Source of the DNA: Siphonodentalium dalli
Taxonomy: Eukaryota > Mollusca > Scaphopoda > Gadilida > Siphonodentaliidae
Reading direction: 5' to 3'
Length of the DNA stretch: 64,000 bases
Assembly: GCA_032622095.1 (NCBI GenBank)
Contig: CP136066.1
Coordinates: 189,896,816-189,960,815 of the forward strand
The position numbers and the translations under genes are program-made. Below are positions 11,301 through 50,075 of this stretch, piece by piece (the first letter of the stretch is position 1; every line of letters begins with the position of its first letter). The notes beneath the pieces were generated by a model. The model was not told the origin of the DNA and searched no databases. It worked only from the letters and a program-made list of their open reading frames with translations.

Positions 11301-14300
11301 ATTGGAGGACAAGTGCTGACTCACTTATGGGTACCCCCTCTCCCTCTTAAGTTATGTTCATACATTTGATATCCAAATAGTCAGAAAACCGCGTATTTTT
11401 TTATAAACAAATTGCACGCAGTTACGATCATTGCCATAATGTGTATGCACATGAATGCGTCCTGAATAAATAAACATTTGTCGAAGTTCAACCATTGCGT
11501 CCTCTGAAATGTCGACATTCGGTGTAGTTATAATTTTTTACAACATTAGTTCAATATTGTTACATTCTTCCAAGTTCCAATGGGGACGGTGTTTCGATAC
11601 TAACTGATTGGTTTTATGGTTTACCCTATAAACACGCCAACGACCTATCTCCGTTTCCCATCTCCCCTACCTTCGTATCTGTTTCGTATGAACCAGTTTA
11701 TCGAACGCATAGTCTCGTCAAACAAATACGTGATAACAGCATGGGATTATTTGGCATTGAATAGATTTAACAGGGAATAAATATCCAAAACCCAAAATAC
11801 GCTTTGGTTATATATATATTATTTTTTTTCAATCATAGATGATATAGCTCTCCAACGTGGTTGCGGATAGCGACAGTCATCTTGGACGCCACGATGAATT
11901 GTGAATGCCCCAGAAAAAAAACATTTTAGTGTATTTAAGATATTACTTCCCCAATTGCATATATGGTTATAATATACAAAGATTCATGCAACTATACAAA
12001 AATGGTCCACATCGACCAGGCTACAAGTCTATACAACTGTTTCCAGTCGAACATATGTAGCTGTAGCTTTTGATTAAGAGTACATTTCACTGCTATTGGT
12101 TGAGTCTGTGATACAAGTTATGACAGTAACAAGAAGAGGTTCTAAGTGCAATACTTGTCCTCTCAGTATTGGCCTTTGTGTGCGATAAGTAAATAAATGA
12201 TAAACTTATTGAGATAGAATAGTACAGACTGCATGCATGAGACTGAATGCATGGTATACGGCCCCTGTTCAGTACTGACATTCATGTTTCAAGTTTAGGA
12301 TGTCACTCCCATTAACTGGTTAGCGGGATTCGCCCTTTCTTCGCCAAATTCAGTTATAAAAGTATAATAATCGATAATCGATGTCTTGTACTCCGTATTT
12401 TCTCACTGATTGGGTTTCATCCCTATCCGCATGTTAACTGGGAGGGTAACAGCTGACGATTACTTTCTGTGTGGAATTCATTCCGAGACAATTTATTATA
12501 ACTCACCCATTTTGTCGGTACCACCGAGCTGACTGATTACTTTCTGTGTGGGGTTCATTCCCAGACTCCTCAGTACGTCGCCGACCTTAAACGCGTCCAC
12601 CTCACCGTCACGGCCATCCCAGAAATCGAAGAGTTCAAACACCTCAGTGACTTCTGTGAAAAAAACAAAAGAGTGAATGACTAAATTAGGAACTGTGTAT
12701 ACACACTACGCTATATAGGTATGACCTGGCTATAGTGACCGTATTTGTATTGATTGTCACACAACGAACAAGACAATTCACGCCCACCGTTGGTCTTAAT
12801 CCTGAAATTTTCCCAAATGATGGAGCTCAGCTCCGCTGTAAACCAATGAGAAAGCACGTGACAAAACTATAGGATTACGACCAATCGTGGGTAGCAAAAG
12901 CAATTTACAACTATCGGGGGCAGTCTGTTATCAGCAAAAACTGAACGCCGTGGATCTTATTTAACTCATGAACATACAATCGGTCGCTTAGGTTAATTTA
13001 ATAATAATGGTCATTTTTTTAATTGTTTTCGTTTCCCAAAAGCAGTGGATAGAAAATAAAGAGTGTTCTTAACCATGATCGTCTGCGCTCGTTTTCAACG
13101 TACCGGTAACTTGTGGACGCTTTTGTAAAATTTCGCGATACATGTGGACATGTACCATACAAATATAACGGTGATTGCAAATTTCTTTTGCCTTCTAAGC
13201 TAAAAATTACCGAAGGAAAGTTTTGACTGATTTGGAATCAAATCTGACAGTGGATATTTAAAGTGTTCAATGCGTCATTGTGTCGTTAAATAAATATAAA
13301 ATAAATGTATACTATACATTATTATCACATGATTAGCACTATTTTCCGATGTAATATTCGAGCGTAATAGACACGTGTAATATCGTCGCGTGCAATGACG
13401 TCACGCTGCTCTTTGGGACAATGATCTCTGGCTGCAGTTAATTGTTGTTTTCGATAAAAATTTAGCGATTATATGATCATGTGATAAAAAGTATCTCAAA
13501 CTCGTTCTATTTTATACGTAATTTATCAACCTCGTCCGCTAAATTCTATTTGAGCCTAGGTAAACCTCGGCTCAAATCGAATTTAGTGAACTCTGTTGAT
13601 AAATTCCGTATAAAATAGTAACTCGTTTGAGATCCTCTATTTATTCCATTCATCAAACCCATTCTATAATAATAATATATAACGGTCGTTGTATAACAGG
13701 AAATTGTGCCAGGTGTACCTATTACTATCCAACTGTATTATTGTTGCGTAAACGTGACCTTTGAATTCCGGCTTGTCGTCTGTTTATATTCCATATGCTA
13801 CGTACGTTAAATCGATGTTTGGGACTATTTTTGAAACATTTCATTAAATTTACGCCATTAATTACGTCAAAGAGTCTTATTTATCTGGAACTATTTCTTT
13901 ACGCGGGCAAACAACGCATAGTTACGTGAAACATCACCGCATGCATTATAGAAGCCACTGTTAGTCTGACGTCGCATTTATTGATTTAAGTATGTCTTAT
14001 TGGGTTTTGTGTCTGGTAAGGAATAGTTCATCCCCAGTTTACAGCCCAATTTACCAAAAAAATCGTCCAGTAAATTAGGTCTGGACCTCGCCTAGCCTAA
14101 TTTACTGGACTCGTTTTGTAACTTTCGCTGGGGACTGGGGACTCGTTGTAGATCCTCTATATAAAATGCATTCGCTAAATGAATTACAACATGCATATAA
14201 TATATGTGAGATATGCGCTTATTGATAGAATATTTTAATCAATATGTAATTGAAGTCATTAAACTTACCTTCGATGTCGGTTTTTGATAATCCAGAAGAC

Positions 14301-15132
14301 TGCAAAATAGATAGGAAAATATAATTTGAGGAATGACAACAGGATAGACAGTAAGATGTAGCCACGACTAAGTTTAGACCTCGTTTGGGGTATAGTCAGA
14401 GAATCTGTGCTCAAGTGGTATCCACATTGAGAGTGTCCAAGTTTGAATATAGACAGATTTTCGTTTTTGTGAAAAATCTTTACTGTACTATGTTTTACGA
14501 AACGAACTTAAATTGAAGTTGTTTAAAGACCCACTTAATTTTCGAACCCCCATTTCACATATATAAAATATATGCCATATTATATACCATTTGAAAGAGG
14601 GAGTTCCAAAACAATGTATTGTCAACTTATCAGGTGTAATGAACTGTGAGCATGTTGTTTTCGTTGAGTTACCGACGTGTTTTTGCGCTTAAGTTTCGTC
14701 TGTTTTGTAGTGCAAAGTGTATTATTTTCAAACATTTCAGTTTGAATTGTTTTTGCATTCTGGGAGCCATAACGGGGGAAGCTTTTTATGATTTCAGCTG
14801 TTTTCTATTTCTCAATGGGCATCTTCTGAAACACAGACGTTTCAAATGGTGATGAATTATAGCATTTTAATCATATTTTATGGTATAGATTGTTATTAAA
14901 ACCGTATATCAAGGCACTATCACAAAATTAATCGGTGACTCGAAAATTAAGTGAGCCTCCAAAAGAACCAGAGCAACGGAACCGAAAACATTGCTTGACT
15001 AGCTTAATGTTCTCGGATTGGCCTGTAACAGTTAAGTTTTGACCACTCGATGTTTTGCCCCTTGCACAACACATCACAGCATTTTCAGTAACAAAAAGTC
15101 AACAACGAGAACGAAGAGTTGGTACTAACCAT
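5332..15132 (-). CDS. Myosin essential light chain, copy A (complete, 6 coding exons)
   Basis: Encodes a 159-residue EF-hand protein, the essential light chain that wraps the lever arm of muscle myosin II. Coding exons on the minus strand are 15130-15132, 14269-14299, 12507-12653, 10836-11003, 9107-9193 and 5332-5375; every intron is GT-AG and the joined frame is open from ATG to TAA. The first EF-hand reads FDFWDGRDG (residues 20-28), keeping the acidic ligand positions D21, D24 and D27 of the regulatory calcium site known from scallop ELC. Later landmarks are [11 protein letters not shown] and the C-terminal [15 protein letters not shown]. The length fits the family (about 150-160 aa). It is the first of three tandem copies in the same orientation. 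Relative to B it has Ala in DADMD (B and C have Gly). Identification is very secure; expression is not shown by sequence. Confidence 0.93.
6763..7741. mobile_element. Harbinger-like non-autonomous element (979 bp, TTA target duplication)
   Basis: Terminal inverted repeats GGGTGCATTTACATTGC... and ...GCAATGTAAATGCACCC are flanked by TTA at 6760-6762 and 7742-7744. GGG-type ends with a 3-bp TWA target duplication are the PIF/Harbinger hallmark. It sits inside the right arm of a hairpin: removing it restores tatcttactta-tactgttatc, matching the left arm at 6468-6490. A truncated relative is at 32196-32350. No transposase. Confidence 0.75.
7958..8210. mobile_element. Short TIR element (~250 bp) in copy A intron 5
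   Basis: Inverted ends TTTATTACACGCTTG and its near complement at 8186-8210. Copy C (60920) lacks it: there the left flank ccggctt runs directly into gtattccac. Confidence 0.55.
8209..8300. repeat. 92-bp hairpin
   Basis: Arms 8209-8243 and 8266-8300 are nearly perfect complements (acagaacgacacgatgtgta and its reverse). It is adjacent to the element at 7958-8210 and likewise absent from copy C. Confidence 0.75.
9107..9193 (-). CDS. ELC copy A exon 5
   Basis: 87-nt exon encoding [15 protein letters not shown] through LDGNMKYE, with acceptor cttcag and donor gtcagtat, phase 1 at both ends. Confidence 0.92.
9760..10244. mobile_element. TTAA-flanked MITE, family 1 (AGGTACTCAATCCGA ends)
   Basis: Inverted ends AGGTACTGAATCCGAT and CGGATTGAGTACCT are flanked by TTAA at 9756-9759 and 10245-10248. 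Related copies are at 28268-28708 and 45014-45418. TTAA target duplications fit piggyBac- or Kolobok-driven elements. No coding capacity. Confidence 0.75.
10330..10801. mobile_element. TTAA-flanked MITE, family 2 (AGGCCCACTTAATTTTCGA ends)
   Basis: Inverted ends AGGACCACTTAATTTTTCGA and TCGAAAATTAAGTGGGCCT with TTAA on both sides (10326-10329, 10802-10805). Its right end lies 34 bp from the exon 4 donor. Copies B and C keep the same right end 35 bp from exon 4, so insertion preceded the gene triplication. Confidence 0.75.
10836..11003 (-). CDS. ELC copy A exon 4
   Basis: 168-nt exon encoding [16 protein letters not shown] through MRHVLTCL, with acceptor ttttcag and donor gttagtat. It holds the central linker and the [10 protein letters not shown]-hand. 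A TTAA-type MITE begins only 34 bp past its donor. Confidence 0.93.
11004..12506 (-). other. ELC copy A intron 3
   Basis: About 1.5 kb homologous to the matching intron of copies B and C, without further elements I can define except the degenerate exon-3 fragment near 12450-12500. No gene seen. Confidence 0.6.
12507..12653 (-). CDS. ELC copy A exon 3 (first EF-hand)
   Basis: 147-nt exon encoding [17 protein letters not shown] through SQLGGTDKM, phase 1 at both ends, with acceptor ttcacag and donor gtgagtta. It carries the calcium-site EF-hand. One degenerate extra copy of its 3' end lies just downstream in the intron (about 12450-12500). Confidence 0.93.
13493..13632. repeat. Palindrome with direct CTCGT bubbles (copy A intron 2)
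   Basis: Stems such as TATTTTATACGTAATTTATC pair with their complement on the right arm (one mismatch), but the blocks between stems read ACTCGTT / AACTCGT and CCTCGTC / AACTCTG, i.e. the same orientation on both arms. It ends GATCCTC. ELC copy B lacks it. Confidence 0.8.
14025..14152. repeat. Palindrome with direct CTCGT bubbles (copy A intron 2, second)
   Basis: Stem CAGTAAATTA pairs with TAATTTACTG and an outer stem is partly eroded. The inter-stem blocks are ATCGTC on the left and ACTCGTT on the right, in direct orientation. It is followed by GATCCTC. It is orthologous to 44229-44366. Confidence 0.8.
14269..14299 (-). CDS. ELC copy A exon 2
   Basis: 31-nt exon encoding [10 protein letters not shown] plus one base, between acceptor ttttgcag and donor gtaagttt. 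It ends in phase 1 and joins exon 3 to make a Glu codon. Confidence 0.9.
14527..14958. mobile_element. TTAA MITE family 2, copy in intron 1 of ELC A
   Basis: Left end TTAA-AGACCCACTTAATTTTCGA; right end CGAAAATTAAGTGAGCCT. The right-hand TTAA is lost. Confidence 0.7.
15130..15132 (-). CDS. ELC copy A exon 1 (start codon only)
   Basis: The plus strand shows taacCAT; on the minus strand this is ATG followed at once by the donor gttagt. Exon 2 opens in phase 0 directly after, giving M-S-S-G-L-S. Copy B has the same ATG|gttagt arrangement, which decides the start. Confidence 0.8.
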
Positions 15133-15221
15133 TTTTATTCTATTCTGCGGAGGAAGACTGCTTCTTCTCGTGGTGGAATGAATGGACTGTGGAAATGTAC
15201 TGACCCATGTAAACCTTTGAG

Positions 15222-15229
15222 TTTATATA
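15222..15229 (-). promoter_or_regulatory. TATA box, ELC copy A
   Basis: TATATAAA on the minus strand, 90 bp upstream of the ATG. The interval to the ATG is conserved with copy B (for example the block ggaaatgtactgacccatg), as expected for a core promoter and a 5' UTR of about 60 nt. Confidence 0.6.
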
Positions 15230-15230
15230 T

Positions 15231-16554
15231 ACGCTTTCGTGAACGGGACCGGGGGCGATCATGGCAATACCATATCCAGATACGCACACTACATATGCAC
15301 CATGCGGCGACCAGGGCTTTACGCCATCTCCACAATTTCATGGCCCAGCACGATTGGCATAATTATTGTCAAGACTTACGCAAATCTCCATAACGTCTAC
15401 GCGGGCAGAGTTTACACAATCATGGCAGACGTTTCTTAAAGCATGTTCATGCATAATGATTATGTTGCATGGTATGCAACTGAGATTATTTCAACGGAAC
15501 CCATAACCAGATACCAAGCATGCTGGTGGCACTCGTTCACGATTTCGATATTTCAGCATGAGGAGTAAACATCATAATATAATATGTGTGTTGCACGGAA
15601 ACTTCAAGTGATTCAAAACCCTCAGGTTGCAGATCTAATCTAGCAATTTATCGCTTTTGCCACGTTGCGATTATCAAAATAAAGCTCGATATATAAATAC
15701 AAAATTGTATGCATGAACTAATTAACTATATTCGAGCTATATGACTCAGAAACTCTCATCGGTGTCATATAAAGCGAAGGGTGTCATTCTGGTCTTCGGC
15801 GTAAAACATTAAAGAACGCCACACCTTTTAGTTGTATATACATGGTGAAATAAAGAGCGTTTGTATCAGGTGATGAATTTCTAAGACATTCGTAATTAAG
15901 CATTTTCAAGGTAAACAAAGCCTTAAATTATATATCGTGTATATGTATAGACGTATATTTATCTCCGGAACATGAACAAAAGTGAGAAATTACTATTACA
16001 GATATTAATCTTGAAAATTAATATCGCTTTATAGAGACAAGTGGTGGATTAGATCCATCTTTATTCATGATATTAACTTGACAAGAATGTACACACTTCA
16101 CCCATAAGCGAATTGGCTAAGAGCGTGCAATACAAGCTCTATGCAGAGTTCAGTCCCCTACGCAGGACTTACCACTGTATTCACCTATACTCGTAATGTG
16201 AAGAAATGTCACATTTAATTATTTGAGACTTGTGTAGGTTACAATTCGTTCTGCATTATTCTGAGAAACTGAACTGTCCATATGCATTTGAAAATTGTCC
16301 AGATCAAACCAGAATGAATTGTAACTGAAAAAACACTTCAATAAAAATTGATAGATTTAATTAAGAAAATATACATGCCGGCAGCGTTCAGACATAGTAT
16401 ATATAGCAAGGGGACTGAACTCTGTTTTGTAGCTTGCGTGCACTATATAGAAGTGGTGGGAATTAATCACCTCCGTTGATTACACTGATCTGGGGTCCGA
16501 TTTGACTACATTTTAGGCAAACTATCCTTTAGAAATGTTCAGCCTACCAGATAG
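15231..16554. other. Upstream flank of ELC copy A
   Basis: Homologous to 45965-46810 upstream of copy B, so part of the duplicated unit. A short inverted pair lies at about 16117-16160 and 16412-16446. No gene seen. Confidence 0.6.
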
Positions 16555-17060
16555 AAGAATATAAGATCTACAACTCGTCTACAGCTCAGTCCAGACCTAA
16601 TCTACAACTCGTCTACAGCCTTTTGTCGAGGTCCAGGCCTAATTAACTGGACAAGTTTTGTAAATTTGGCTATAAACTGTGGTCGAGTTGTAAATTCTAT
16701 GTATGATCCAAAACCTCCATAAAAATACATAAATCAATCAGTGCGACGTGAAACTAACAACGGCTTCTATATAAACCGTGCGATAACGTTTCGCTTAACT
16801 ATGCGTTGTTTACCCGCGTAAAGAAATAATACGTATTGACTAATTAATTGCTTAAATTTAATTAATTATTTGTTAAAACGAAATCAAGAATAGTCACAAA
16901 CATCGACTTGGCATACGCAGTGGTGTAAACAGACGACAAACCGGAAGTCAACGTCACGTTTGCGCAACAATAATACATTTAGGTGCACATGCATGGCACT
17001 ATTTCCTATGATACAATTACCGTTGTATATGGTTAGTATAGATGGCTTTAATGAATGGAA
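16555..17060. repeat. Inverted copy of intron-2 sequence 13640-14160
   Basis: Reverse complement of 13640-14160, including the blocks ttacccgcgtaaagaaat and ccggaagtcaacgtcacg. It carries a decayed version of the CTCGT palindrome (16561-16690). Confidence 0.7.
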
Positions 17061-17704
17061 TAAGAGTTGGATCATGTAATAAAAAAGAAAATACTTTCAA
17101 TCGCCATCATTTGTATGGCACATTCGTCGCACAAATCCACACACAAAAAACCCCACATGTACGTCGTAATTGAAAACGCTCTTTATTACATGTTGTTTTT
17201 ATATGTAAAGCATGAACGCTCTTTATCAGAGTCGCTCAGAGACTTCCTCAAAAGTCGATATCAGACACCAGAATAGCTTATATATACTATTAATATGACA
17301 TTAGCACATAAAACACAAACAAACATACACGTTTTCACCCTTGCACATGCACCCCACCCGAAAGATGATCCAAGTGCCGGCCTGTATACATATATTTTTC
17401 TATTGATACACGCATCATCCACCATCTATGACTGGTAATTATGTTTCAAAAAGTGTCTACTATTTATGATAAAATCGGAAATGTTTCGGAATTATCTATT
17501 AAATTTATCGGGGTGAGAGCAAGCTATGGTCGCTATCCCATTGAGGGAACATTCTGCTTTGCGTAATTATGTTTTGAATAGTGTATATCACCATTTAACT
17601 GGGAGATATATAGCCTCATCTGAGGGAAGATATGTTCATTTATCAAAACCGCAATTCTCGGGGTTGGTGATACACTCGGGTTTGGCGATACCACGTACAC
17701 GGGG
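17061..17704. other. Intergenic, no gene seen
   Basis: AT-rich DNA with the paired aacgctctttat motifs at 17175-17186 and 17215-17226, and short open frames without recognisable content. Confidence 0.5.
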
Positions 17705-18230
17705 GTGATTACGTGATTTCTGAGAGCCACAGCGACAGCTCATAGACAGGTGTTACAAATGATATAAAGTCCCTGTGAGAAAACTGCAGTATATTTTTTC
17801 AACTCGTCTTAGTGTAGCGATAAATTATGTTACAAAATGTTACGAAGCATTACGTTACATGATTTCTGAGATCCACAGAGACCGCTCGTTGATTGGTGTT
17901 ACAAATGATATAACGTCCCTGTGAGAAAACCGCAGGATATTTCTTCTACTCGTCTCAGTGTAGCGATATGTATAGATGTGTTTAACAGTGTTACGAAGGT
18001 TTACGTGATTTGTGAGATTCCACAGATCGATGTACCGATCATAGACGGGTGTTCAACTTATTGTTTCATACAAATGATGAGAAAACACAAGAATTATTTT
18101 CTTCACCACCATCGCAGCGTAGCAACATATTTATTGTTAGACTTCAAACAAATGAATTATTAATTAACGCGTTACGAAGCATTTTGTTATTTCTGAGATT
18201 CCACAGAAACTGTTCGCAGTCATATTCATG
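17705..18230. repeat. ~150-160-bp tandem array, about 3.3 units
   Basis: Diverged units share a gtgatttctgag block, a ccacag block, a gtgttacaaatgatata block and a ctcgtctcagtgtagcgat block. No coding content. Confidence 0.7.
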
Positions 18231-18526
18231 TCTGCATTATCTGGACACAATTTAGTGTTTTAATAATCACTTTAAATTTGACCAAATATATTAGTTTAAA
18301 AAAAATAAATCATCTTAAAATTCCTTAAATGCCATGATGGTTTAATTCTTCTGAAAACTTGTTTCTCTGTAAAATCACAATGACACAAAATGACAAATGA
18401 CTGTGCGAAAAATCGAAATTGAAAAGTACTTGGCTCAATGTCGATTGATAGGAGAATTCCTGTAAGAAAATGTTCACTAAACTTATTGATTATCGCCTGT
18501 TCATGATTCCCAGTTGACATGGATTA
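18231..18526. other. Intergenic, nothing recognised
   Basis: AT-rich sequence without repeat, element end or gene that I can define. Confidence 0.4.
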
Positions 18527-19037
18527 GTCCAGGAGATATTGGTCGACCTCTGCACCCCCCCAGGACTCAACTTCACCCCACTAATTTTCTTACTTAAGGT
18601 CTCCTCTATTTTTTTTCACTTGTTAACAAGAAAAAAAAGTGGCCGCAGATACTCCAGACAAGATGGCGTCCATCATGACGGCCATTTTTTGTTAATGCAC
18701 CAGGTCCCTTTGATCGCCGTTATAGTAAAGATGATATCACATGCGGTATTGTTTTCCGCTCGATTCGTTATGCTAATATAAGACCCTTACAAATTAGCCA
18801 AAAATCCGACACCAGAATCCAATATGGCGGCCAAGATGGCCGCCGAAATGTGAAAATATGCAATTTTTCTGACATGTTACCACTTTTCGTTTGTCTCTGT
18901 GGGAAAATGTTGGTATGTTATACATGTTATACATTTATCATATAGAGGAGTCATTGGCGACCACGTGGGGACCATAATATACATTCATTGCGGGATATTG
19001 TTGTCCGATATCAAGTTTTTCCAAATGCCGGTATAAT

Positions 19038-19843: not shown

Positions 19844-19959
19844 GTATAATAGGTCAAAGCCGAATCTACGTTAATAACGCGATGTAATGTTATTGCTATT
19901 ATAACAACACCCATGCATATATATGTGCAGGAGATACTCGAGCTAGGATTCCTCTTATA

Positions 19960-28263: not shown

Positions 28264-28267
28264 TTAA

Positions 28268-34362: not shown

Positions 34363-34440
34363 ATACGTGGAGTGTATAAAGAGATTGGTTCTCTCTGGGG
34401 AAATTTCACGAGCAGGCTGATGAAAACCAGTATTTAACAT

Positions 34441-35438: not shown

Positions 35439-35482
35439 TTACTTGTCCCCGAATGGTCCTGCCATCACTTTATTGATGAATT
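35439..35482 (-). CDS. ELC copy B exon 6 (terminal)
   Basis: 44-nt coding end encoding [14 protein letters not shown] and TAA; it carries a Lys to Asn change relative to A and C. Confidence 0.9.
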
Positions 35483-38400: not shown

Positions 38401-41400
38401 TCGAAAATTAAGTTTGCCTTTAATTCAAGACTTGTATGTTGGTATATACTAACCAAGACACGTGAGCACATGCCGCATCTCGGCGGCTGAGATGAAACCT
38501 TGACCTTCTCTGTCGAATGTCTTAAACGCCTCCATGAAATCCGCAAAAGTTCCAGTCTCCTTCTCTTCCATGGCCTTCTTGTAAATTGTAAGGAACTCAT
38601 CGAGTTTGTATGATTTTTCTCCTGAAAAGAATTGTCAGTCGTATCATGGGACAAGTTGATCTTCTGATTCCCCTATATTGCAATTGGTTTAACCCTTTCT
38701 ATACTAAATACAAATTGAAATACAAATTTCACGAGAAATTTTTCCGTTCCCTCAGAAATTTCGCCTTTAAAGTGTTATGAAACACCCATCTGATGTGTTC
38801 CAAATGGTGTATAACAAATAATGATTCCAAAATAAGTTATTTTCATACATTTGATATCCAAATAGTCAGAAACCCGCGTATTTTTTATAAACTAAGTGTA
38901 CGCAGTAACGATTGTTGACGTAATCCTTGTCGTAACGTGAAATTCCCATGAATACGCCCTGAATAATTGAACATTTGTTCGAAGTTCAACCATTGTGTTA
39001 TGTGAATGGTCGACAGTCGATGTAGTTGGAATTTTTGACAGTAATTCATTGTTACATTCTTACAAGTTCCAACGGGGACAGTGTTTGGATACTAACTGAT
39101 TGGTTTTATGGTTTACCCTATAAACACGATCTATCTCCGTTTCCCATCTCCCGTAACTTCGTATGTGTTTTGTATGAACAATTTCGTCGAACGCATTGTC
39201 TCGTCAAAGAAATGCGTGGTTAAAGCGTGGGATAATTTGGCATTGGATAGATTTTAAGGAAATAATAGACCAAAAACCCAAAATACGCTATGTTTATATA
39301 AGGATTAACTGTCATGTGGACTGTTTTTATGGAGATGTAACCGTGAGGTAAGTGGACATAACTTGTGTAAAACCCGAAGGGTTTTATATACAAGTTATGA
39401 CCACTTACCTCACGGTTACATCTCCATTAAAATAGTCCACATGACAGTTAATCCTTATATTTATATACATTTAGCGAAAAAGCCACTTTTGTAAATGTAT
39501 TTAATTCGAAAAGTGTATCGTGACAAAAACAGCCCAAAATACCCAATAGCACCCTTGGCAAAAGTTAATAGGAACAATTTCTCTTCATATTGAAACCCGA
39601 TGATGTATTAAGTCAATCCTGCGCGAGTCCAAATGCGCCCAAAACATTACGCGTTCGTCTTTCTAAACCCAATGACGTATCGATGGTGTTATGAGTTTGG
39701 TGTTATGAGCCGTTGCGCATTCACCGATAAATAACTGCAACTAGCCACGTGGGCGCCGACCAATCAGAATGCTGGATTTAGTTATGACAACACTTAGTAT
39801 GTAAATATATATTGTTTTCAATCCCAGATGATATAGCTGTCCAATGTGTTTGCGGATAACGAGCCATATATTGGACGCCACGATGAATTGTAAATGCCCC
39901 AGCACAATAGCATTTTAGTGTATTTAAGATATGACTTCCCCAACTACATATATGGTTACAGCATGACATAAGAATCTATGCATCTATAAAACAAAATAGT
40001 CTACATCGACCAGGCTACAACTGTTTCTGTCGAACACATGTAGCTTTTGATTAAGAGTACATTTCGCTGCTTTCGTTTGAGTCTGGTCTGTGATAAAAGT
40101 TATGACAGCAACAAGAAGAGGTTCTAAGTGGCAATACTTGTCCTCTCATGATTTGGCCTTTGTGTGCGTTTAACTAAATATAGGATAAATTTATTGAGAT
40201 CCAAGTACAGACTGCATACATGTATGGTATATGGCCCCTGTTCAGTACAGACATGCATGTTTCAATCTTAGGATGTCACTCCAATTAACTGGAACGCGGA
40301 ATTCACCCTTGCTTAACCAAATTCAGTTATAAAAGTATATTTACATACTAAGTGTTGTCATCACTAAATCCAGCATTCCGATTGGTCGGCGCCCACGTAG
40401 CTAGTTGCAGTTATTTCTCGGTGAATGCGCAACGCCTCATCACACCAAGCCCATAACACCATCGATACGTCATTGGGTTGGAAAGACGAATGCGTAATGT
40501 TTTGGGCGCATTTGGACTCGCGCAGGATTGACTTAATACATCATCGGGTTTCAATATGAAGAGAAATTGTTCCTATTAACTTTTGCCAAGGGTGCTATTG
40601 GGTATTTTGAGCTGTTTTTGTCCCGATACACTTTTCGATTTAAATACATTTACAAAAGTGGCTTTTTCGCTAAATGTATATAAATATAAGGATTAACTGT
40701 CATGTGGACTATTTTTATGGAGATGTAACCGTGAGGTAAGTGGTCATAACTTGTATGTAAAACGGGTTTTACACAAGTTATGTCCACTTACCTCACGGTT
40801 ACATCTCCATAAAAACAGTCCACATGACAGTTAATCCTTATATACAATCGATAATCGAGGTCTTTTACTCTTGTATTAATTAAGATATATATTTTGTCGC
40901 TTCCATCGAGCTGACTGATTACTTTCTGTGTGGGGTTCATTCCCAGATAATTTATTAGAACTCACCCATTTTGTCCGTTCCACCTAGCTGACTGATTACT
41001 TTCTGTGTGGGGTTCATTCCCAGATAATTTATTAGAACTCACCCATTTTGTCGGTTCCACCGAGCTGACTGATTACTTTCTGTGTGGGGTTCATTCCCAG
41101 ATAATTTATTATAACTCACCCATTTTGTCGGTTCCACCGAGCTGACTGATTACTTTCTGTGTGGGGTTCATTCCCAGATAATTTATTATAACTCACCCAT
41201 TTTGTCGGTTCCACCGAGCTGACTGATTACTTTCTGTGTGGGGTTCATTCCCAGATAATTTATTAGAACTCACCCATTTTGTCGGTTCAATCGAGCTGAC
41301 TGATTACTTTCTGTGTGGGGTTCATTCCCAGATAATTTATTAGAACTCACCCATTTTGTCGGTTCCACCGAGCTGACTGATTACTTTCTGTGTGTGGTTC

Positions 41401-44400
41401 ATTCCCAGATAATTTATTAGAACTCACCCATTTTGTCGGTTCCACCGAGCTGACTGATTACTTTCTGTGTGGGGTTCATTCCCAGACTCCTCAGCACGTC
41501 GCCGACCTTAAACGAGTCCACCTCACCGTCACGGCCATCCCAGAAATCGAAGAGTTCAAACACCTCAGTCACCTCTGAAAAAGTTAGAGTGAATGTTACT
41601 AAATTAGGCACTGCTATACACACTACGCTAGGTAAGCCCCGGCTAGTGACCGTATTTGTTTTGATTGTCACACAACGAACGAGACGATTCACGCCCACTG
41701 TTGGTCTTAATCCTGTATTTTTCCGACATGATTTTCGAGTATATATCAGCTCCACTAGTACTGTGGACCAATGAGAAAGCACGTGTAACATTATAGGATT
41801 TCGATCAATCGTGAACGTAAATTGTCCTACTCACTGTGTGACAAAAAAGACGCCGATATATCCAACCAAAATACGGCCTCCAATCGGGGCAGAGCGTAAC
41901 GTGTGTAACCAGTGACTACCACGTACTGGACGAAAAGTGAGGTTCACAAATATGGCGATATCACGTATTGTCCATGTATCGAATATACGTGGCATTTAAT
42001 TCACGTTTATTTTAAATTCTAATGCACTTATGTGAATATACCCCCCTGAAACATCACATATTTGCGGGGGGTTTAATTATCTATAAACTAAAAAAGTATA
42101 GTCCGGTTCACCGCTTCAATGTTAGATACGTGCCAATATTGACGTTCTAATCTCGTTCATGGCCAATCCAGCTCCACTCACTGTTCCGTGTCTATCCATG
42201 ACGTCACCCTTACGCAGTGCAGCTGAAGGGGTCATTCTCACCAAAAAAAGTACTGAAGGGTAGACAGGTTTTGAAAATGTGCTGACGGGTCCCCATGGTT
42301 TGCGATCGGGACTAATGGAGTTACATTAACTGTGTTCCCGAAAGTCTGGCGCCCACCAGTTTTCGTTTTCAGTTCATTTTAGTTTTCCTTGGAACATATA
42401 CAATTATCTCTAACAGAAATTATGGCAGACATGAAAACTAAAAGTCATTTAGAATGGGATTTCAAGTTTTGTGTACCCTTCAGCACATTTTTAAAATCTG
42501 TGTACCCTTCAGCACTTTTGTTGGTGAGCGTTACCCTTCAGCCGCAGCACATGCCGACGACGTTACGGAGTAGATGTATAGAGTTGGCGTCCGGTCCACT
42601 GACTTCCGTTACTAACTCGATGTTATATAAACAAACCAGCGGCGTCGCTTTTTCGAAATTTGACTGTCAGTACATTCGCCCATGTACTTTCAGAAATCAC
42701 AAAACACCACACCGTTATATCCCATCATTGTCTCGATATCATTTAACCAAATTTCTTGACATGAAACCGTGACAGGTATACGGCGTGAAATACATTTCAA
42801 TGAGTAAACAATTTTCCATTGTTTCAATTCAACTTCAAGTTCGCGGCATCCAGCGCATTGAATTTAATACAAAAAGTCGTGAGTTGAGTTGCACATTTCA
42901 TCGATAATTACAAGGCACACGTGTGTGTCGAGATAACGTTTTAAGTTCGAAGAGATTTAAAATGTGGATAACAGTCTGGCAATGATAGTGTTATCATTAT
43001 TGGAGAATTGAGAATACTCACAAAACACCACACTGTTATCCACATTTTAAATCTCTTCGAACTTAAAACGTTATCTCGACACACACGTGTGCCTTGTAAT
43101 TATCGATGAAATGTGCAGACATAGAAAACATTCAGCCAACTCACGACTTTTTGTATTAAATTCAATGCGCTGGATGAAATATAGTCCCTTAATTAGCATC
43201 GCTCTTATCGTTAAACATACTGATAAAAACGAAAAATTGCCACCTCGAATAGAAATAAATATGCACAACAGTTAGTTTTTGCATGTACCTAATGTCTTCT
43301 TCAGATGTTTACGACTTACAAATTTCGGTTTTGATTTTACCGCGAACTTGAAGTTGAATTGAAACAATGGAAAATTGTTTACTCATTGAAAAAAATACCA
43401 CACTGTTATTCCCTAAACATACAGAATCATTAAACGTGATGTTTGATTCCGCGTATACATGGCAGGTAAAGTCTACATCTGGTATCCAGATAGCGAGAGA
43501 GAGGACTGACTGCCGCGGATGTTACTTAACTCATGACCCCATAATCGGTCGCTTGGGTTAATTTAATAACAATGATATACTTGCAGACGTGGAAGTTTTA
43601 AGTCGTTTTTTAAATTATTTTCGTTTGGACGCTTTTGTAAATTTTCGCGATGCACGTGGACAAATATAACGGTGATTGCAAATTTTATTTTTACTATGTC
43701 TGCTTAGCTTAAAATTACCGAAGGAAAGTTTTGACTAATTTGGATTCAAATTTGACAGTGGATATTTAAAGTGTCCCATGTTCAATATGCGCCATTGTGT
43801 CGTTAAATAAATATAAAATATATTCACTAAAAAAAATTGTATACATGTACATGATCCTACTATTATTTCATTCATTAACCCCATTCTATAATAATGATAT
43901 AATAAGGCTAATAGTGTCAGGTCTATACCCAAATGTATTATTGTTGCGTAATCGTGACCTTTGACTTCCGGCTTGTCGTCTGTTTACATTCCGTACGCTA
44001 AATCTATGTTTGTGACTATTGTTGATTTAGTTTGAATAAATATTTCATTAAATTTAAACCATTAATTACGTCAAAGAGTCTTATTTGTCTGGGACTATTT
44101 CTTTACGCGGGCAAACAACGCATAGTTACGTGAAACATCATCGCATGCCTTATAGAAGCCGCTGTTAATCTCACGTCGCATTTATTGATTGAAGTATGTC
44201 TTATTGGGATTTTTATTAAGTAAGAAATAGAATCTACAACTCGTCCCCAGTTTATAGCGAAATTTACAAAACTCGTCCAGTAAATTAAGTCTGGACCTCG
44301 CCTAGCATAATTTACTGCACTCGTTTTGTAAATTTCGCTATAAACTGGGGATTCGTTCTAGATCCTCTTAAAAAATACATTCGCTAAATTAATATAGCAT

Positions 44401-45862
44401 ACATATCATTTAGGCATTTATGCGCTTATATATAGCAGATTTTAATCAATATGTAATGTAAAACTTACCTTCGATGTCGGTTTTTGATAATCCGGAAGAC
44501 TGCAAAATAGAGAGGAAATCATATAACAGGATAGACGGTAAGATGTAGTCACAGCTAATTTTGGACCTCGTTTTGGGGTAGAGTCGGAGAATCTGCGTTC
44601 AAGGGGAATCCATATGGATAGGATTCAAGTTTGAATGCACAATTACACCACCCCCCCCCCCCCTTCCGACCAGATTAAATTCTCTGTCGTTGTAAATTCC
44701 ATTTACACTACAGTACCTTGGGAAATATACAATTATCAAACTTGTACCATATTTGTTTCTGTACCGTAAATGGGATGATTAGAGACAGATTTTCGATTCT
44801 TTGAGAAAATCTCTACTGAAGTTTCTCTTTCATAGTCATTTCTAATTTTCATGTTGTGTCTATGTGAATAACGGCTACATGAGTTTACAATTCCTTTTCA
44901 ATTATCTGTCTTCAGAATTTATTAATGGCCATCACGTTTCGTCCCCTATACTAATGGGTAAATATCATCATATCTATCCAAGGAACGAGTCACTGACTCT
45001 TGGTTCCCGTTAAAGGTACTCAATCCGATTCGACGGTCCCCATGTCATCAGATTCCAACAACAACAACAACAATTGTTTTAAATGCCGCTTCAGTTATCA
45101 GAATCGATTAACTGCACCAAAATAGTGCTAACCACAGTCAAGTATAGTTCAACGAAATTTGGCCGGTTTGTCAAATATCTGACACAAAAAAGCCACTGGA
45201 TTTTAGAGTTATCGATCTCCATCCCCAATTGGTCAGATAAGTTCTTCTTGTCGACTGTTTACTGGGCCATTTAAAATTAAAATAACATATTTCAAACATC
45301 GATATCTGATCACTCCTAGCTTTGATGGGTGGGTTCCTCGACTCGAATCAAATATTTTTTACCCCCATGCAAAGCCAAAGAAATGGTAATTTAGGAGCAT
45401 CTAATCGGATTGAGTACCATTATATTAAGCCCGATGTCTCTCTGGTATACGCTGCGTTAGGGATTCTACAGGGACAATTTCTATGTTTTACGAAACGAAT
45501 TTAAAAGATCCAGAACAATGGAACCCGAAAACATTGCTTGACTATCTTAATGTTCTCCGATTGGCCTGTAACAATGAAGTTTTGACCATTCGATTTTTTT
45601 TGTCTGAAAGCATCTGTCAGCCATACAGTGAGAATGTAAACACGTATACATAGTATGGGGTGGTTATCATATATGGTTGGGGCAAGGGTGGAACTAAATT
45701 AGTAAAACCGACAGATAGTCGTACTGCTGACTGTCGTGAAGAATTGATTGATTAATCATAATCTGAGAAAATAGCCCATTCTCACATCACAGTGACTTTA
45801 TAGACACAGTATTTACGTTAACATAACGTGAACGACAAAAACAAAGAGTTGGTACTAACCAT
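35439..45862 (-). CDS. Myosin essential light chain, copy B (complete, 6 coding exons)
   Basis: Second tandem ELC gene. Coding exons on the minus strand are 45860-45862, 44469-44499, 41428-41574, 38454-38621, 37661-37747 and 35439-35482, with the same lengths and phases as copy A. The frame is open throughout and encodes 159 residues. Differences from A that I can read: Ala to Ser in VDxFK, Asp to Glu in AMxEKE, Ala to Gly in TDxDM, and Lys to Asn in EFIxKVM. The FDFWDGRDG calcium loop is unchanged. Its introns are the most altered of the three: seven extra exon-3 3' fragments, a 29-bp minisatellite in intron 5, an inverted pair of 510-bp elements in intron 3, and a 1.7-kb insertion in intron 2. 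It is likely functional, possibly with aberrant splicing at exon 3. Confidence 0.92.
35483..37660 (-). other. ELC copy B intron 5
   Basis: Shares 35490-36428 with A and C, then holds the 29-bp minisatellite. It lacks about 1.7 kb present in A, with a junction at the gatgccatacata block near 37350. Confidence 0.6.
36429..37211. repeat. 29-bp minisatellite, ~27 units, only in ELC copy B
   Basis: Unit ACATATCAAACCATATAGTG + TATTCGCCA. Copies A (near 6412) and C (near 60420) each contain a single unit at the homologous position, so the expansion occurred in B after duplication. Confidence 0.95.
37661..37747 (-). CDS. ELC copy B exon 5
   Basis: 87-nt exon encoding [15 protein letters not shown] through GNMKYE, with donor gtcagtatg. 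Confidence 0.92.
38090..38419. mobile_element. TTAA MITE family 2, right half in intron 4 of ELC B
   Basis: Matches the right two thirds of 10330-10801 and ends GCCT-TTAA (38420-38423). The left end was lost with neighbouring intron sequence. Confidence 0.65.
38454..38621 (-). CDS. ELC copy B exon 4
   Basis: 168-nt exon, same boundaries and phase as copy A. It reads AMEEKE where A reads AMDEKE. Confidence 0.92.
39297..39806 (+). mobile_element. 510-bp hairpin-ended element, left copy (ELC B intron 3)
   Basis: Starts TATAAGGATTAACTGTCATG, has a long hairpin at that end (39298-39461) and ends ...CTTAGTATGTAAATATA. The reverse complement is at 40335-40844. Copies A and C lack both. Confidence 0.75.
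40335..40844 (-). mobile_element. 510-bp hairpin-ended element, right copy, inverted
   Basis: Reverse complement of 39297-39806; together they bracket 528 bp of ordinary intron sequence that is continuous with its flanks in copy A (about 11820-12370). Confidence 0.75.
40895..41427 (-). repeat. 77-bp array of exon-3 3' fragments with donors (ELC B)
   Basis: Seven units downstream of the true exon 3. Each carries the exon tail (coding [20 protein letters not shown]-like) plus gtgagtt and about 20 bp of intron. Period 77 bp (unit landmarks at 40911, 40988, 41065 and on). Confidence 0.9.
41428..41574 (-). CDS. ELC copy B exon 3
   Basis: 147-nt exon with the first EF-hand, acceptor ttttcag and donor gtgagttc. 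Immediately downstream in the intron its 3' end with donor is repeated seven times at a 77-bp period. Confidence 0.92.
41820..43490. other. 1.7-kb insertion in ELC B intron 2
   Basis: Absent from copy A, where the flanks are nearly contiguous (about 12890-12960). It contains a foldback (42797-43390) and an unrecognised 127-residue plus-strand open frame (42389-42772) with no family I know. Confidence 0.6.
42797..43390. repeat. Foldback with two nested inverted arms
   Basis: Outer arms ttcaatgagtaaacaattt... and ...aaattgtttactcattgaa. The inner arms around 42880-42975 and 43030-43120 (gagataacgttttaagttcg) are near perfect. The right arm has about 165 bp of extra sequence. Confidence 0.8.
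44229..44366. repeat. Palindrome with direct CTCGT bubbles (copy B intron 2)
   Basis: Best preserved example. A 24-bp stem (from CCCAGTTTATAGCG) and a 10-bp stem (CAGTAAATTA) are perfectly complementary between arms. The spacers read ACTCGTC and AACTCGTC on the left and CACTCGTT and GATTCGTT on the right, all on the same strand. It ends GATCCTC. Confidence 0.85.
44469..44499 (-). CDS. ELC copy B exon 2
   Basis: 31-nt exon encoding [10 protein letters not shown], with acceptor ttttgcag and donor gtaagttt; identical protein to copy A. Confidence 0.9.
45014..45418. mobile_element. TTAA MITE family 1, copy 3 (right end degraded)
   Basis: Left end TTAA-AGGTACTCAATCCGATT; the right end reads CGGATTGAGTACC but the flanking TTAA is no longer adjacent. 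It lies in intron 1 of ELC copy B. Confidence 0.65.
45860..45862 (-). CDS. ELC copy B exon 1 (start codon only)
   Basis: ATG followed by donor gttagtacc on the minus strand, identical in layout to copy A. Confidence 0.8.
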
Positions 45863-45956
45863 TTTTATTCTGTTCTGTAAAGGAAAACTGTTTCTTATCG
45901 TGATGGAGCGGATAGACTGTGGAAATGTACTGACCCATGCATGTAAATCTTTGCAG

Positions 45957-45964
45957 CTTATATA
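45957..45964 (-). promoter_or_regulatory. TATA box, ELC copy B
   Basis: TATATAAG on the minus strand about 95 bp upstream of the ATG, aligned with the copy A TATA box by flanking homology. Confidence 0.55.
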
Positions 45965-46866
45965 CGCTTTTGTGAACGGGACCACATGGGTGTGGGGCGA
46001 TCATGGCAATACCCGATCCAGATGCGTGTATTATGCAAATCGCGTGCACTATGCGGCGACCGGGGTGTGTACATCATCTCCATCGTCACATGGTCCAGCA
46101 TGCACGATGGGCACATGGTCAAGACTTATACGTCTGTGCGTGTATAGTTTACACATGGTATATGTTTTGTAAGGCTTGCAAAGCATGCGCATGTCTGGTG
46201 GTGATTATGTTGCATGGGAATCATGGGATGCAACTGAGATTATTCCAACGGAATCCATAACCAGACCATGCATTAGAACCGCCAAACATGCTGGGTGGCA
46301 CCGTGCTGGCACGCGTTCACAGTTTCGATATTTCAGCATGAGGAACGAGCATCATATCTACTATATATGTTGCACGGAAACTTCAAGCGACTCAAAATCC
46401 TCAGGTTGCATATCTAACCTAGCAATTTATCGTTTTTACCCCGTTGCAATTATCAAAATAGCTCGATAACTGCATGAAATAATTACCATATATATAAAAC
46501 ATTAAAAAGCGTCATATTTTAGTGGTGTGGTAAAATAAAGTGCGTTTGTATCACTTAACAGCTGATGAATTTCTATCTAATACAGTCGTAAGCCTTGTCG
46601 TGGTATATTGTATTATATTATTATATAGTGTATATTCATAGATCGTTTGTTATCTCCGGAACAGATGCAAAATTACTATTTCAAATTTGAAGCCTTAACA
46701 TTATGAATCGCTTCAGACACGCGGTGGATTCGATCCATCTTTATTCATGATAAGCGATATAAGCGAATTGGCTTAGAACAGGTAGTGGAAGAGGTGGGAA
46801 TTAATCACGTACATAGATTACACTGCATGATCCATAGACAATGCCATGAATCTCTACCCTGGCTAA
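45965..46866. other. Upstream flank of ELC copy B
   Basis: Homologous to 15231-16490 upstream of copy A. The homology stops near 46810, just before the TAGTCCAGG composite. Open frames at 45828-46469 are not conserved as protein. Confidence 0.6.
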
Positions 46867-47397
46867 TAGTCCAGGCACATTTGGGTTCACTAGGGAAAAA
46901 ATTCGGGGAAAGCTTATTTCTTCAGGAATTAATAAGAACATATTTATGAACAACATGGCAAAAGTCCCCTAAAATCCGAGTTGAGCTTTTTGAGATATCA
47001 TGATTTTTCGGAATGGTTCAAATTCTGACGAAATTCCACCAGACCATATGCGATTGCAGTCATAAGTAGAATAATTTACGGACATTTGTGCATACATATC
47101 CATCTATCGTGGAGCAGGTGCCGCTAGATATATGAAATTGATGCTAGAGCATACTACAAGTCGATATTCCGTAATTGGGATGACATTACCGAAGAGAGCA
47201 TAGAAACCGCGTGATGATTCAACATTTTTCCCATAAAAGAGTGCGAGTAAAGATATTCAGAAGACAATGAGCTGAAATATGAACCACTATACTAGAACAG
47301 AGGTTAATTCAGAAGATGAACGTGAACAGATATATGGGAACATCACCACCATTAAGATGTTATGGCCGAAAACTTAACACTACCCCCTAAAACGTAA
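46867..47397 (+). repeat. Left terminal inverted repeat of the composite
   Basis: Pairs with 57100-57641 in inverted orientation; the outer ~20 bp and two internal blocks are well conserved, the middle is diverged. A second TAGTCCAGGC occurs at 47440-47449. Confidence 0.65.
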
Positions 47398-47922
47398 ATC
47401 ATGGCTTCGGGTGTATGAAAGGCAAAAACGCCCACACAATAGTCCAGGCGTTTGGTATAATAATTGTGCAATGGGTGGTAAAACCATACACTTGGAACCT
47501 ATGTTCCTCATACACCATACATATATATCTATTTATTATATGACTACCACTAATACCTTACAAATATCACTATTGTTTGGCGGTGAATTCCGAGCAGTCG
47601 GAAAACGCATGTCTGGTCAGAAGTCGTATCGGTATCCTGTGAATTCCGTATCAGTATAGTTTTAATTCCGTATCAGTGTCCTGTGAAATTAGGTCACCGG
47701 AAGTTGGGAACTATTTATCAGGTATGTTCGTTTGAAGCGTAAACGGGTCTGTTCTATTGTCGCGCGTATATCCTGACCAACTGCGCGTGCGCATTATCGT
47801 ATAAACTGACAACCGGAAATAACTTTTTGTGTGCCGGACACTGTGCCGGACAGTGTGCGGAACCGTTCGGCGTACGTCAAATATTCGTCTGCTTTAACTA
47901 ATTATAAATTACACTACAAGTA
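47398..47922. other. Upstream region of the recombinase gene
   Basis: No gene recognised. It includes two gtatcagt / gtgaattccg repeats (47630-47690) and a gtgccggaca doublet (47831-47853) before the ATG. Confidence 0.4.
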
Positions 47923-49645
47923 ATGGAACCCGACGAATTTATTGATGATTTAAGCTCCCAGGCAATAGAAAAAATGCTGCTGGGTGTTATTGATTTACAT
48001 GGGGATTTTGTAGTAGAAGAAACTCTCACTCTACCAAATGAAACAGACGTATTAGCTGATTTAGGGCCATTGGCATTGCCTTCAAATGAAAATATTGGAA
48101 GGACTTGTGAATATGACTTTGCTATTCCCATGAGACTGACAGCAGATGCGGTTAGTAGTTCCATTCCATCTATTGATAGCATGCTGACACCATCTGAATG
48201 TATTAATATACCTATTAATATACCTACAATCAGTGGAATCGCACCAAGTTCTAGTCTTTCAAGAGCACCACCACCGGCATCAGTCAGCAAGAACGCCCCA
48301 ACGTTTCTAAATATGACAAACCAGGTGAGTGAATTTTCCGAGAAGACGAAGAACAGGAACACAGAGAGGAAGACATAGTCAGTCGCAAGATTGTTCAGTC
48401 AATGGTTGATTAGTAAAAATGAAATGCGTGCTGTGACAGTACTTCCTCCCAATGTACTTGATAACCAAATATCTGCCTTCATTCTCAGTTTAAGGAAAGC
48501 GGACGGATCGGAATATGAGCCCGACACCCTCACGAGTTATCACCGTGCCATTGCTCGCCAACTATCCGATAATTCTTATCCATACGACATTGTTACAGAC
48601 CTTCAGTTCCGGGCATCGCGATGTGTACTTGCTTCAAAACGCAAGGAACTTAAGCAAAAAGGTTTTGGCGGACGACCAAATGCTGCAGATACATTGACTG
48701 TACGGGAAGAAGAGATCTTGAAAAACAAAGGATGTATCGGCAATTTAAGTCCAGTAAGACTGCAAAATAAAATGTGGCTACAGAATACCAAAATGTTTGG
48801 TTTGCGGGGCGGTCAAGAAAATCGGAGTCTGCGATGAGGTGATGTCCAGCTTAAAAAAGATGAGCACGGAGCAGAATACCTAGAATATTCTGAAAGAGAT
48901 ACCAAGACACGAACAGGAGCAACCAGCGATAGCAGGAAATTTCGGCCAAAGCAGTTTGCAACGCCCAATGATCCTGAGAACTGTCCTGTTATCGCGTACC
49001 GAGCATTTATGGAACATAGGCCCGAAAAGATGAAAACACAAGAGAGTCCGTTTTACCTGGCCATAAATTACAAGAGGCGCCCTGGATCAATTGCGTGGTA
49101 TAAGGATCAGCCCCTTGGGGATAATACTTTAAGAAAATTAATGAAAATGATGGCGGAGAAAGCGGAGTTACCGGGAAAAAAGACAAACCACAGTGCCCGT
49201 AAAGCTACGTGTACAAGACTTTTACATGCCGGAGTTGCGCCTACCACCATTCAGCAGCTAAGCGGCCACAAAAATGTACAATCTATCAACAATTATGCAG
49301 CGGCATCAAATGACATGCAACATACCATGAGTGACATTCTGTCGATTGGAAACACATCAGTTCCATATCCATCATCACCGAGACCCACTGTGAATGTGAC
49401 TGAAATTCCTTCGAATAACCCTGTTGCCACACCAGCATCTCCTTTAGTACCGGTACATCAGGGAGTGAATATCAACAGGATCAATTCCCAAGCGCAAATG
49501 ACACAGGCAAAACAGCTGAAAAGTGGTTCCTTCGAAGTTAACACGATGACAAGATGTGAGATCCATATTCATCATCACTACGGCGGAGAAAGCAAACCAC
49601 CAAAACGCTGTCATCGAGAGCGATTCTGACACCGAATCGGATTAA
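47923..49645 (+). pseudogene. Crypton-type tyrosine recombinase, disabled
   Basis: One long plus-strand frame from ATG 47923 that reads as a tyrosine recombinase of the Crypton / DUF3504 type (the domain also found in KIAA1958, QRICH1 and ZMYM proteins). Visible parts, with stops counted as residues: an acidic N-terminus, an N-terminal core-binding domain (GSEYEPDTLTSYHRAIARQL, about 190-215), then the catalytic domain with Arg295 (GLRGG), His423-x-x-Arg426 (NHSARK), His449 (SGHK) and Tyr458 (INNY), in the expected order. The frame is broken by TAG at 48376-48378 (codon 152) and TGA at 48835-48837 (codon 305, where relatives have Trp). A one-base shift near 49600 moves the expected acidic tail (IESDSDTESD) into another frame, ending at 49645. 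All catalytic residues survive, so the decay is recent. An AATAAA lies at 49905-49910. It sits inside the 46.9-57.6 kb inverted-ended composite. Confidence 0.85.
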
Positions 49646-49916
49646 ATTTGTCATTCACATGTTTTTGTTCGAAAATTAAACTGTTCAGACTTATTACGAA
49701 AGATTTGTTTTTATTATTACGCGTTTGTGCGAATCACCCCCAAATTCAATACAAATAGTTCCTCGACCTTGGCCTAAAAATGGGAGTTTCGGGTGATGAC
49801 TGGGAATGTCCAATGGAGTACATTTGCCCGGGTGATGACATGGGATGGTGTAACGAAGTAGTTTTGCCCTTTGTGACATGGGATGGACCAAACATGCGTC
49901 ATATAATAAACGCTTT

Positions 49917-50075
49917 ATCGGTACAGTGAAGTGATATGGGCTGCAGTATCATGTCTCGTTGACGATGTCAGATCGCCGCACCAAACTCGCTGCCTGCGGC
50001 AGCTCGTTTGATACGGCGATCTGACATCGTCAACTCGACGTGATACTGCAGCCCATATCACTTCACTGTACCGAT
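49917..50075. repeat. 159-bp near-perfect palindrome 3' of the recombinase gene
   Basis: Stems of 35 bp (from ATCGGTACAGTGAAGTGATA), 19 bp (TGACGATGTCAGATCGCCG) and a 5-bp inner hairpin (CTGCC/GGCAG) are perfectly complementary. They are separated by unpaired CTCG-containing blocks in the same orientation on both arms. It starts 7 bp after an AATAAA. Confidence 0.9.

Follow-up and report, generated by a model that had tools for sequence, protein, structure and literature searches.

Bacterial integrons carry arrays of cassettes with characteristic ends, and a hairpin at the 3' end is a feature of Helitrons, another kind of element that we considered. The attC sites of integron cassettes, as treated in the portions of PMC2727003 and PMC4792948 that concern their structure, are poorly conserved in sequence and consist of R and L boxes with an unpaired central spacer; unpaired features within the stem choose the strand, the bottom strand alone is exchanged, and the product is resolved by replication. 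For Cryptons, passages on element ends in Kojima and Jurka (2011; PMC3212892) state that boundaries are difficult to characterize and that terminal repeats were not found in the animal members, and the word hairpin is absent from that paper. Strand-biased exchange is reported for the bacterial SE elements in the relevant part of PMC9345347. Our search of the literature, which was chiefly open-access and was made mostly by titles and the beginnings of abstracts, found no published hairpin or attC-like site in Cryptons.

The window, the whole 64,000-nt stretch of the genome of the scaphopod Siphonodentalium dalli that we analyzed, contains palindromes whose two arms carry the same short word on the same strand. 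These palindromes are the 3' ends of Crypton-type tyrosine-recombinase (YR) transposons and of their short non-autonomous relatives; this anatomy is firm, and that the hairpin is part of the recombination end is almost certain. Our main reading, to which we assign a probability of about 0.6, is that the elements recombine through a folded, single-stranded, attC-like end.

Palindromes of the window and the transposons that they terminate

Palindromes are present at 13493–13632, 14025–14152, 44229–44366, and 49917–50075, where a first-pass annotation had placed them. The same annotation had the word (A)CTCGT on the same strand in both arms of all four; in three of them both arms do carry (A)CTCG(T) on one strand, whereas the hairpin at 14025–14152 is more decayed, with the first left word missing and the second reading ATCG. 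In the hairpin copy at 13.5 kb, four of six words are intact. The regularly placed bulges described earlier are real as unpaired sites but smaller than proposed: on folding, ACTCGT facing ACTCGT is self-complementary at four of its six positions, the outer letters pair, and the bubble is only the middle TC/TC, a 2 × 2 loop that on the opposite strand has GA facing GA. Two cases formerly taken as weaker (6620–6710 and 60630–60700) have the same design on the minus strand and hence show GA/GA on the plus strand, and the case called a decayed version (16561–16690) looks, by eye, like a degraded member of the 44.2-kb family. The terminus GATCCTC attributed to three of the palindromes is found at 13631, 14151, and 44361.

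We searched both strands for four CTCG words arranged symmetrically between flanks that pair. This pattern occurs once in the window (in the 49.9-kb hairpin) and not at all in eight random 8-kb stretches, by a test so strict that it misses the three GATCCTC copies. In a small check of inverted repeats covering the window and a random 64 kb, 32 hairpins contained 18 2 × 2 loops, of which 11 sit in two tandem-repeat hairpins and three were direct TC/TC pairs, a sample too small to weigh in the argument.

Table 1. Elements, hairpins, and recombinase segments in the window
Feature	Position	Strand	Details and basis
Hairpin of the same design, GA/GA on plus strand	6600..6730	-	Fold; candidate member
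Non-autonomous element A	13322..13640	+	5' end TTATCACATGATT; R'' 13475-13488; hairpin 13493-13632; 3' end GATCCTCTAT
Non-autonomous element B (C type; 5' end damaged, hairpin decayed)	13641..14160	+	Abuts A
Decayed hairpin resembling C type	16561..16690	+	By eye
Non-autonomous element C (both ends damaged)	43848..44368	+	Relatives L027, L030, L032
Crypton element D	47533..50084	+	Boundaries from five related copies (L001-L005); empty sites of relatives
R' half of D, 5' end TTATTATATGACT	47533..47545	+	Complementary to R'' box
YR fragment of D, DUF3504 and QRICH1-like N-terminal part	48391..48837	+	PF12012 6.2e-05, PF25561 5.5e-04, both under curated cut-off
YR catalytic part of D (HxxR, GH, NNY)	49009..49629	+	PF00589 4e-12, PF12012 2.7e-07, both over cut-off; alignment
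R'' box of D, GTCATATAATAAA	49898..49910	+	Reverse complement of D's 5' end
3'-terminal hairpin of D	49906..50086	+	Four same-strand CTCG words at 49955, 49986, 50003, 50034; fold, covariation
Second copy of the 6.6-kb hairpin type	60610..60720	-	Fold; candidate member

The window also contains hairpins and repeats of other kinds. A very long near-perfect palindrome at 42880–43130 (90-bp arms, 99%) is without paired CTCG loops and represents a different hairpin family, and another near-perfect hairpin element occurs twice, at 39280–39475 and 40675–40850, its arms measuring 84 and 71 bp. From 25916 to about 28100 there is a long array of a 25-bp tandem repeat, mostly about 94% identical to the reference copy, with GC and AT skew. 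An exon on the minus strand within 41417–41791 has its nearest matches, on the evidence of 53 residues, in the myosin light chains of squid mantle muscle (3i5f) and of scallop adductor, which points to a mollusk or a near relative as the probable host.

A Crypton-type YR transposon, element D (table 1), terminates in the 49.9-kb hairpin on its 3' side. Its crossover T|TTAT is at 47532/47533 and its 3' end ..GTGTAT|ATAT at 50084/50085; the reading frame of the window copy is broken. A search for YR genes in the genome (2.23 Gb in nine contigs) gave 150 scored relatives among 1,228 first-look candidates, and copies of the hairpin were found about 300 bp downstream of three of these relatives, besides the window's own. 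When copies are aligned within lineages, they start at TTTATTATATG or a variant of it and stop just outside the hairpin. In each element the analysis covered the longest open frame. A domain scan of six translated open frames of relatives matched PF00589 and PF12012 over the curated cut-off in all six, and listed PF25561 (QRICH1) in five of the six, in every case under its cut-off. The catalytic residues are present as HxxR in five of six frames (NRVR in P0004), as GH in all six, and as NNY in five (NNH in P0006), and the window fragment has all three; because P0004 lacks HxxR and P0006 lacks NNY, not every copy encodes an active enzyme. Against PDB sequences, a profile built from the YR alignment matched QRICH1 (1.2e-15), Int (6emz/6en0/6emy, about 2e-07), XerA (1.6e-04), and IntI4 (2a3v, 0.037). 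None of 41 pattern matches in viral contigs proved to be a relative.

Conservation of the hairpin and the match between the element ends

We surveyed 41 YR loci, comprising 20 hand-picked from the list of relatives, 20 further hand-picked downstream regions, and the window, with extra downstream sequence fetched for two loci and more for four. The hairpin is present in 34 of the 41, including five in which one of the words is not intact (L003, L041, L049, L058, and L091). Among the other seven, L048 and L055 are truncated, L050 and L059 have the right half only, L013 diverges before the 3' end, L014 has lost part of the hairpin, and the 3' end of L008 was not fetched. L050 and L059 are related 590-type copies that share about 1.7 kb at 96%, having undergone a deletion at the palindrome followed by duplication. 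The loci fall into eight lineages (D, 644, 606, 589, 659, 646, 548, and 590, all but D named by approximate ORF length), each of which includes copies with four CTCG words on the sense strand, and every sampled family has a long 3' hairpin in which same-strand CTCG words make up at least two pairs. The spacing between the inner words is 17 nt in most cases, 13 nt in 590, and 19 or 23 nt in copies of 548, and the outer steps are 26–33 in the eight lineages.

The stems themselves differ. A fairly permissive aligner scored left arms from less related lineages at 0.69–0.82, as against 0.74 for shuffled sequences, and the two arms of each lineage's own hairpin at 0.87–0.95. Among the four lineages that can be aligned, both sides have changed with pairing kept in 24 of 74 pairs; shuffled controls had a mean of 8.5, with none of 500 reaching 24, and slid controls gave at most 4. 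The words, on the other hand, read CTCG in 337 of 356 cases aligned across ten families (the eight autonomous lineages plus A and C), a count that includes the fifth, normally paired CTCG of the 590 stem. On the stem covariation, the rarity of the CTCG quadruple, and this conservation, we rejected chance bubbles. The first-pass annotation proposed that the orientation of the word appears to be under selection or to be fixed by the way the palindromes arose, and this is supported: same-strand words are kept in eight Crypton lineages with differing stems. We go beyond it in concluding that the hairpins are 3' recombination ends of YR transposons.

Despite the general upkeep of the same-strand orientation, conversion to complementary words does occur. 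The 19 departures include six CGAG and one TGAG, each an exact double change to the complement; the third-word conversion of L032 lies in the apical part, where C copies vary in length, and is not clean, leaving six clean cases. Any double change was seen in 14 of 12,126 other dinucleotides in the same copies. Seven complementary double changes indicate that the arms evidently pair in vivo, and the likeliest cause of the conversions is repair or copying between paired arms. The context of the right outer word of the A family has 288 occurrences. Among the first 100 or so places listed, four differ from TC (TT, TA, CC, and GC); GA is not one of them, and conversion is thus uncommon in that family. 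Two further hairpins were seen near Cryptons of the 646-aa family. At L010:854–947 another ACTCGT hairpin has its end directly abutting the 5' end of such an element, an insertion beside another element's end; and a second, weaker internal hairpin (ATAAAAAGAATGATG...) follows the ORF in all four copies (L009, L010, L011, and L052), about 700–1,300 bp upstream of the terminal hairpin.

The two ends of an element also match each other. In all ten families compared, a box immediately preceding the hairpin is close to the reverse complement of the first 13 or so bases, as in 659 (TTTATTTCACGCCG with CGGCGTGAAATAAA), D (TTTATTATATGAC with GTCATATAATAAA), and A (TTTATCACATGAT with ATCATGTGATAAA). 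Where the 5' end was usable (24 comparisons), the best match in the stretch searched was 12–14 of 14 bases; window copy C, with its damaged 5' end, reached 9 of 14, and for this type the complementarity is shown by L027, L030, and L032. At positions 6–13, beyond the common TTTAT, 5' ends pair with their own boxes at a mean of 7.8 of 8 as against 4.3 (maximum 7) for the boxes of other groups, although the test has low power for C against D or A boxes and for 646 against 548, which reach 6–7. Because the 5' end is complementary to R'', joining the two ends in an excised circle would give R''-hairpin-R', which is how an integron attC site is laid out. When folded, this putative junction has an R stem of about 12–15 bp, a few unpaired bases at the crossover in most families, and then a long stem with 2 × 2 loops.

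Target sites, non-autonomous elements, and alternative explanations

Insertion is precise, in the form T|TTAT...T|NTAT, and without target duplication. A 5' anchor, taken from +7 onward, was readable in 53 of 77 copies, and 50 of the 53 show their family's own six bases at +1 to +6; the exceptions are L035 and WC, both altered copies, and L032, in which one base differs. The left junction reads N|TTAT in 51 of 53, with N being T in 42 of the 51, and in 67 right junctions of the form T|NTAT the N is T (33), A (25), G (8), or C (1). If it were left to chance on which side of the overlap the exchange ended, about one quarter of left junctions would be without T at +1 (the target has T in half), and only two of 53, both altered copies, are. 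For 44 insertions the two flanks were joined and set against the fetched sequences; 20 match across the junction, 9 of them gap-free within 12 bases (two being tandem neighbors) and 11 gapped within 12 bases; the weak empty-site matches of L061 and L065 have a gap at or beside the junction. Empty sites are informative where their core differs from TTAT, as in L001 (ATAT), L003 (ATAT), L019 (GTAT), and L021 (TTCT, with a gap 11 bases away), and in all four the left junction has the element's TTAT and the right junction the core of the target. Because of this arrangement, we conclude that insertion duplicates no target bases and crosses over at a single fixed point, as in one-strand exchange.

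Targets prefer A at −8 (43/51), T at −9 (33/51), T at +2 (61/67), A at +3 (56/67), and T at +4 (56/67). These preferred bases form a loose inverted pair whose center places a 6-bp overlap at −6 to −1 with the crossover at its right edge; against this, TAT at +2 to +4 is exact in 47 of 67 targets and ATA at −10 to −8 in 20 of 51. Such a target, with loosely inverted ATA/TAT arms around 6 bp, is like a normal YR site, and a single fixed crossover by itself needs no single-stranded DNA. The hairpin and the R'' box might then be a double-stranded recombination site that never folds, providing extra binding sites for the recombinase and used by strand-biased, SE-like exchange or by ordinary integration of a circle. 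The constant choice of left and right core could also be explained by strand-biased exchange on double-stranded DNA, and targets do resemble the element's first six bases at +1 to +6 (3.8 of 6; control, 1.9). We nevertheless consider this account unlikely, since it leaves unexplained both the compensated changes along the 74 pairs and the family-specific match of each R'' box to its own 5' end. The match of target and element at −6 to −1 is also poor (2.7 of 6, or only 1.9 of 5 when T is left out and −6 to −2 are scored; control, 1.4 of 6), which would hinder a second exchange.

Many elements with the hairpin are short. Non-autonomous copies of about 320–550 bp without a long gene retain it, and element copies are dispersed over all nine contigs; element A was delimited with 26 further fetched copies, and the pattern of its 3' end matches 288 places genome-wide. 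No autonomous partner of the A and C families was met among the loci surveyed. This bears on the idea that the hairpin acts in RNA, whether by signaling the 3' end of the transcript, its export, or its silencing or as a source of small RNAs. Its position downstream of the ORF on the sense strand would suit such a role, which we nonetheless regard as improbable because the gene-less elements keep the hairpin, which ends at the insertion point and is tied by R''/R' pairing to the 5' terminus, an arrangement that fits a circle rather than an mRNA. Nested insertions, in which inner palindromes landed in ACTCGT sites and duplicated them, would on reasoning alone yield same-strand blocks by construction; we rejected this very improbable origin on account of the actual target, T|NTAT rather than CTCGT, and of a two-level layout with near-constant spacing (13–23 inner, 26–33 outer) and covarying stems in eight lineages. 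That the elements are ordinary foldback elements or MITEs of a DDE transposase with bubbles by chance is scarcely credible, short, palindromic, and numerous as they are, since YR genes carry the same ends and both terminal inverted repeats and target duplication are absent.

The elements also form arrays. A and B abut at 13640/13641 as a two-element array in which B is without about 20 bases of its 5' end, and genome-wide there are 353 exact junctions of A and C types in which a 3' end runs straight into the next 5' end, the two sharing a single TTTAT, as against none with a reversed-pattern control. The C8 array (L093, C8:11830000–11836000) has ten C-type 3' ends spaced 508–552 bp apart, and its 552-bp units are 99.8–100% alike in the comparisons listed. 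Mixed A|C junctions are found at L062 and L075, and A|A|other at L066. Arrays of one family may also grow by unequal exchange, which is a harder explanation for the mixed ones. The near-identical tandem array on C8 is a possible case of a cassette array becoming a satellite; in one unit of it, the apical word pair is fully complementary.

A possible route of recombination and comparison with known systems

From the sequence of this one genome we infer a circle, a single folded strand, and its recombination as follows. The element would be excised as a circle in which its 3' and 5' ends are joined as R''-hairpin-R', a D-type junction being predicted to read ..GTGTAT|TTATTATATGAC.. One strand of the junction would fold, and the R''/R' duplex together with the base of the hairpin would form a recombinase site with an unpaired spacer. 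The YR would then exchange one strand between this folded site and a duplex target (ATA..6 bp..TAT), and replication would complete the joining, as with integron integrase and the folded bottom strand of attC. The usual polarity of YR cutting points to the bottom strand at such a crossover, and this would be the strand cut here if the 6-bp overlap lies at −6 to −1. Bottom-strand junctions fold more stably in nine of ten families, by just 0.2–8.5 kcal/mol, and the opposite result for 548 counts against a bottom-strand preference.

On the bottom strand, the words read 5'-CGAG-3' against 5'-CGAG-3' and would form a tandem G-A mismatch, which is possible with same-strand words only. Tandem G-A pairs in the context 5'-PyGAPu-3' are stable and well structured. 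Such a motif might mark the strand to be used, keep the palindrome imperfect, or both, and thereby produce the orientation rule, an explanation that we hold tentatively, at slightly under even odds. With DNA energy parameters a toy stem had equal energy with CTCG/CTCG and CGAG/CGAG, showing no advantage; G.T and A.C mismatches (4 vs. 2) do not tell the strand; and the bubbles lie tens of bases from the crossover, which counts against the explanation. A search by title and abstract found no paper on tandem sheared G-A with CGAG. Whether the whole amounts to an animal integron-like system, in which Cryptons and hundreds to thousands of gene-less "cassettes" would use one folded strand, single-strand exchange, arrays, and pairs of tandem G-A mismatches (CGAG/CGAG) as a structural code for the recombinase to read, we judge to be evenly balanced.

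Whatever the route, Cryptons and their non-autonomous copies can be delimited directly, in any genome, by means of the 3' hairpin, the R''/R' pair, and the target rule. Should the folded-strand route prove true, single-strand site-specific recombination, known from bacterial integrons, would also exist in animals with another recombinase family, and domesticated relatives named in the Crypton survey (QRICH1, ZMYM2-4, and KCTD1, in the portion of PMC3212892 that treats them) would become candidates for binding structured DNA.

Compared with the Cryptons described in the relevant portions of PMC3212892, the elements resemble CryptonA in having a YR gene related to DUF3504/QRICH1, no terminal inverted repeats (TIR), and non-autonomous copies, and resemble other Crypton groups in their short direct repeats at the ends, here TTTAT on the left and TNTAT on the right. 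Unlike the animal Cryptons characterized there, each lineage sampled here inserts at a defined target and carries, besides a complex 3' hairpin, an R''/R' pair. They share with SE elements, as far as the integration data in PMC9345347 go, the use of a YR and a core (6 bp in SE elements) that tends to one fixed side after integration; SE-6945, however, is bacterial and uses several proteins, and its authors detected no attC/attI-like inverted repeat in attB, attL, or attR.

The likeness to integron cassettes, judged against the structural accounts in PMC2727003 and PMC4792948, is closest in architecture. Both have a 3' imperfect palindrome with little sequence conservation and a variable stem; in both the 5' end completes R' and pairs with a box, R'', at the start of the hairpin, with an unpaired spacer between the R stem and the hairpin; and both have a single crossover point before a T-rich core and are found in head-to-tail arrays. 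The differences are equally definite. The recombinase is of the DUF3504/Crypton family and is encoded inside the element rather than being of the IntI family (profile match to IntI4, 0.037); no fixed attI platform lies beside its gene, and copies are instead dispersed at T|NTAT targets; the core is T|TTAT as against G|TT, without the GTT/AAC crossover triplet; 2 × 2 CTCG loops far from the crossover take the place of single extrahelical bases in the attC L stem; and the hairpin is about 160–190 nt long as against 57–142 nt for the attC sites covered. By its recombinase and its short direct repeats the system is a Crypton. It does not belong to the integrons, since its enzyme is unlike IntI in sequence and it has neither an attI platform nor a GTT triplet, although it would appear to work like one.
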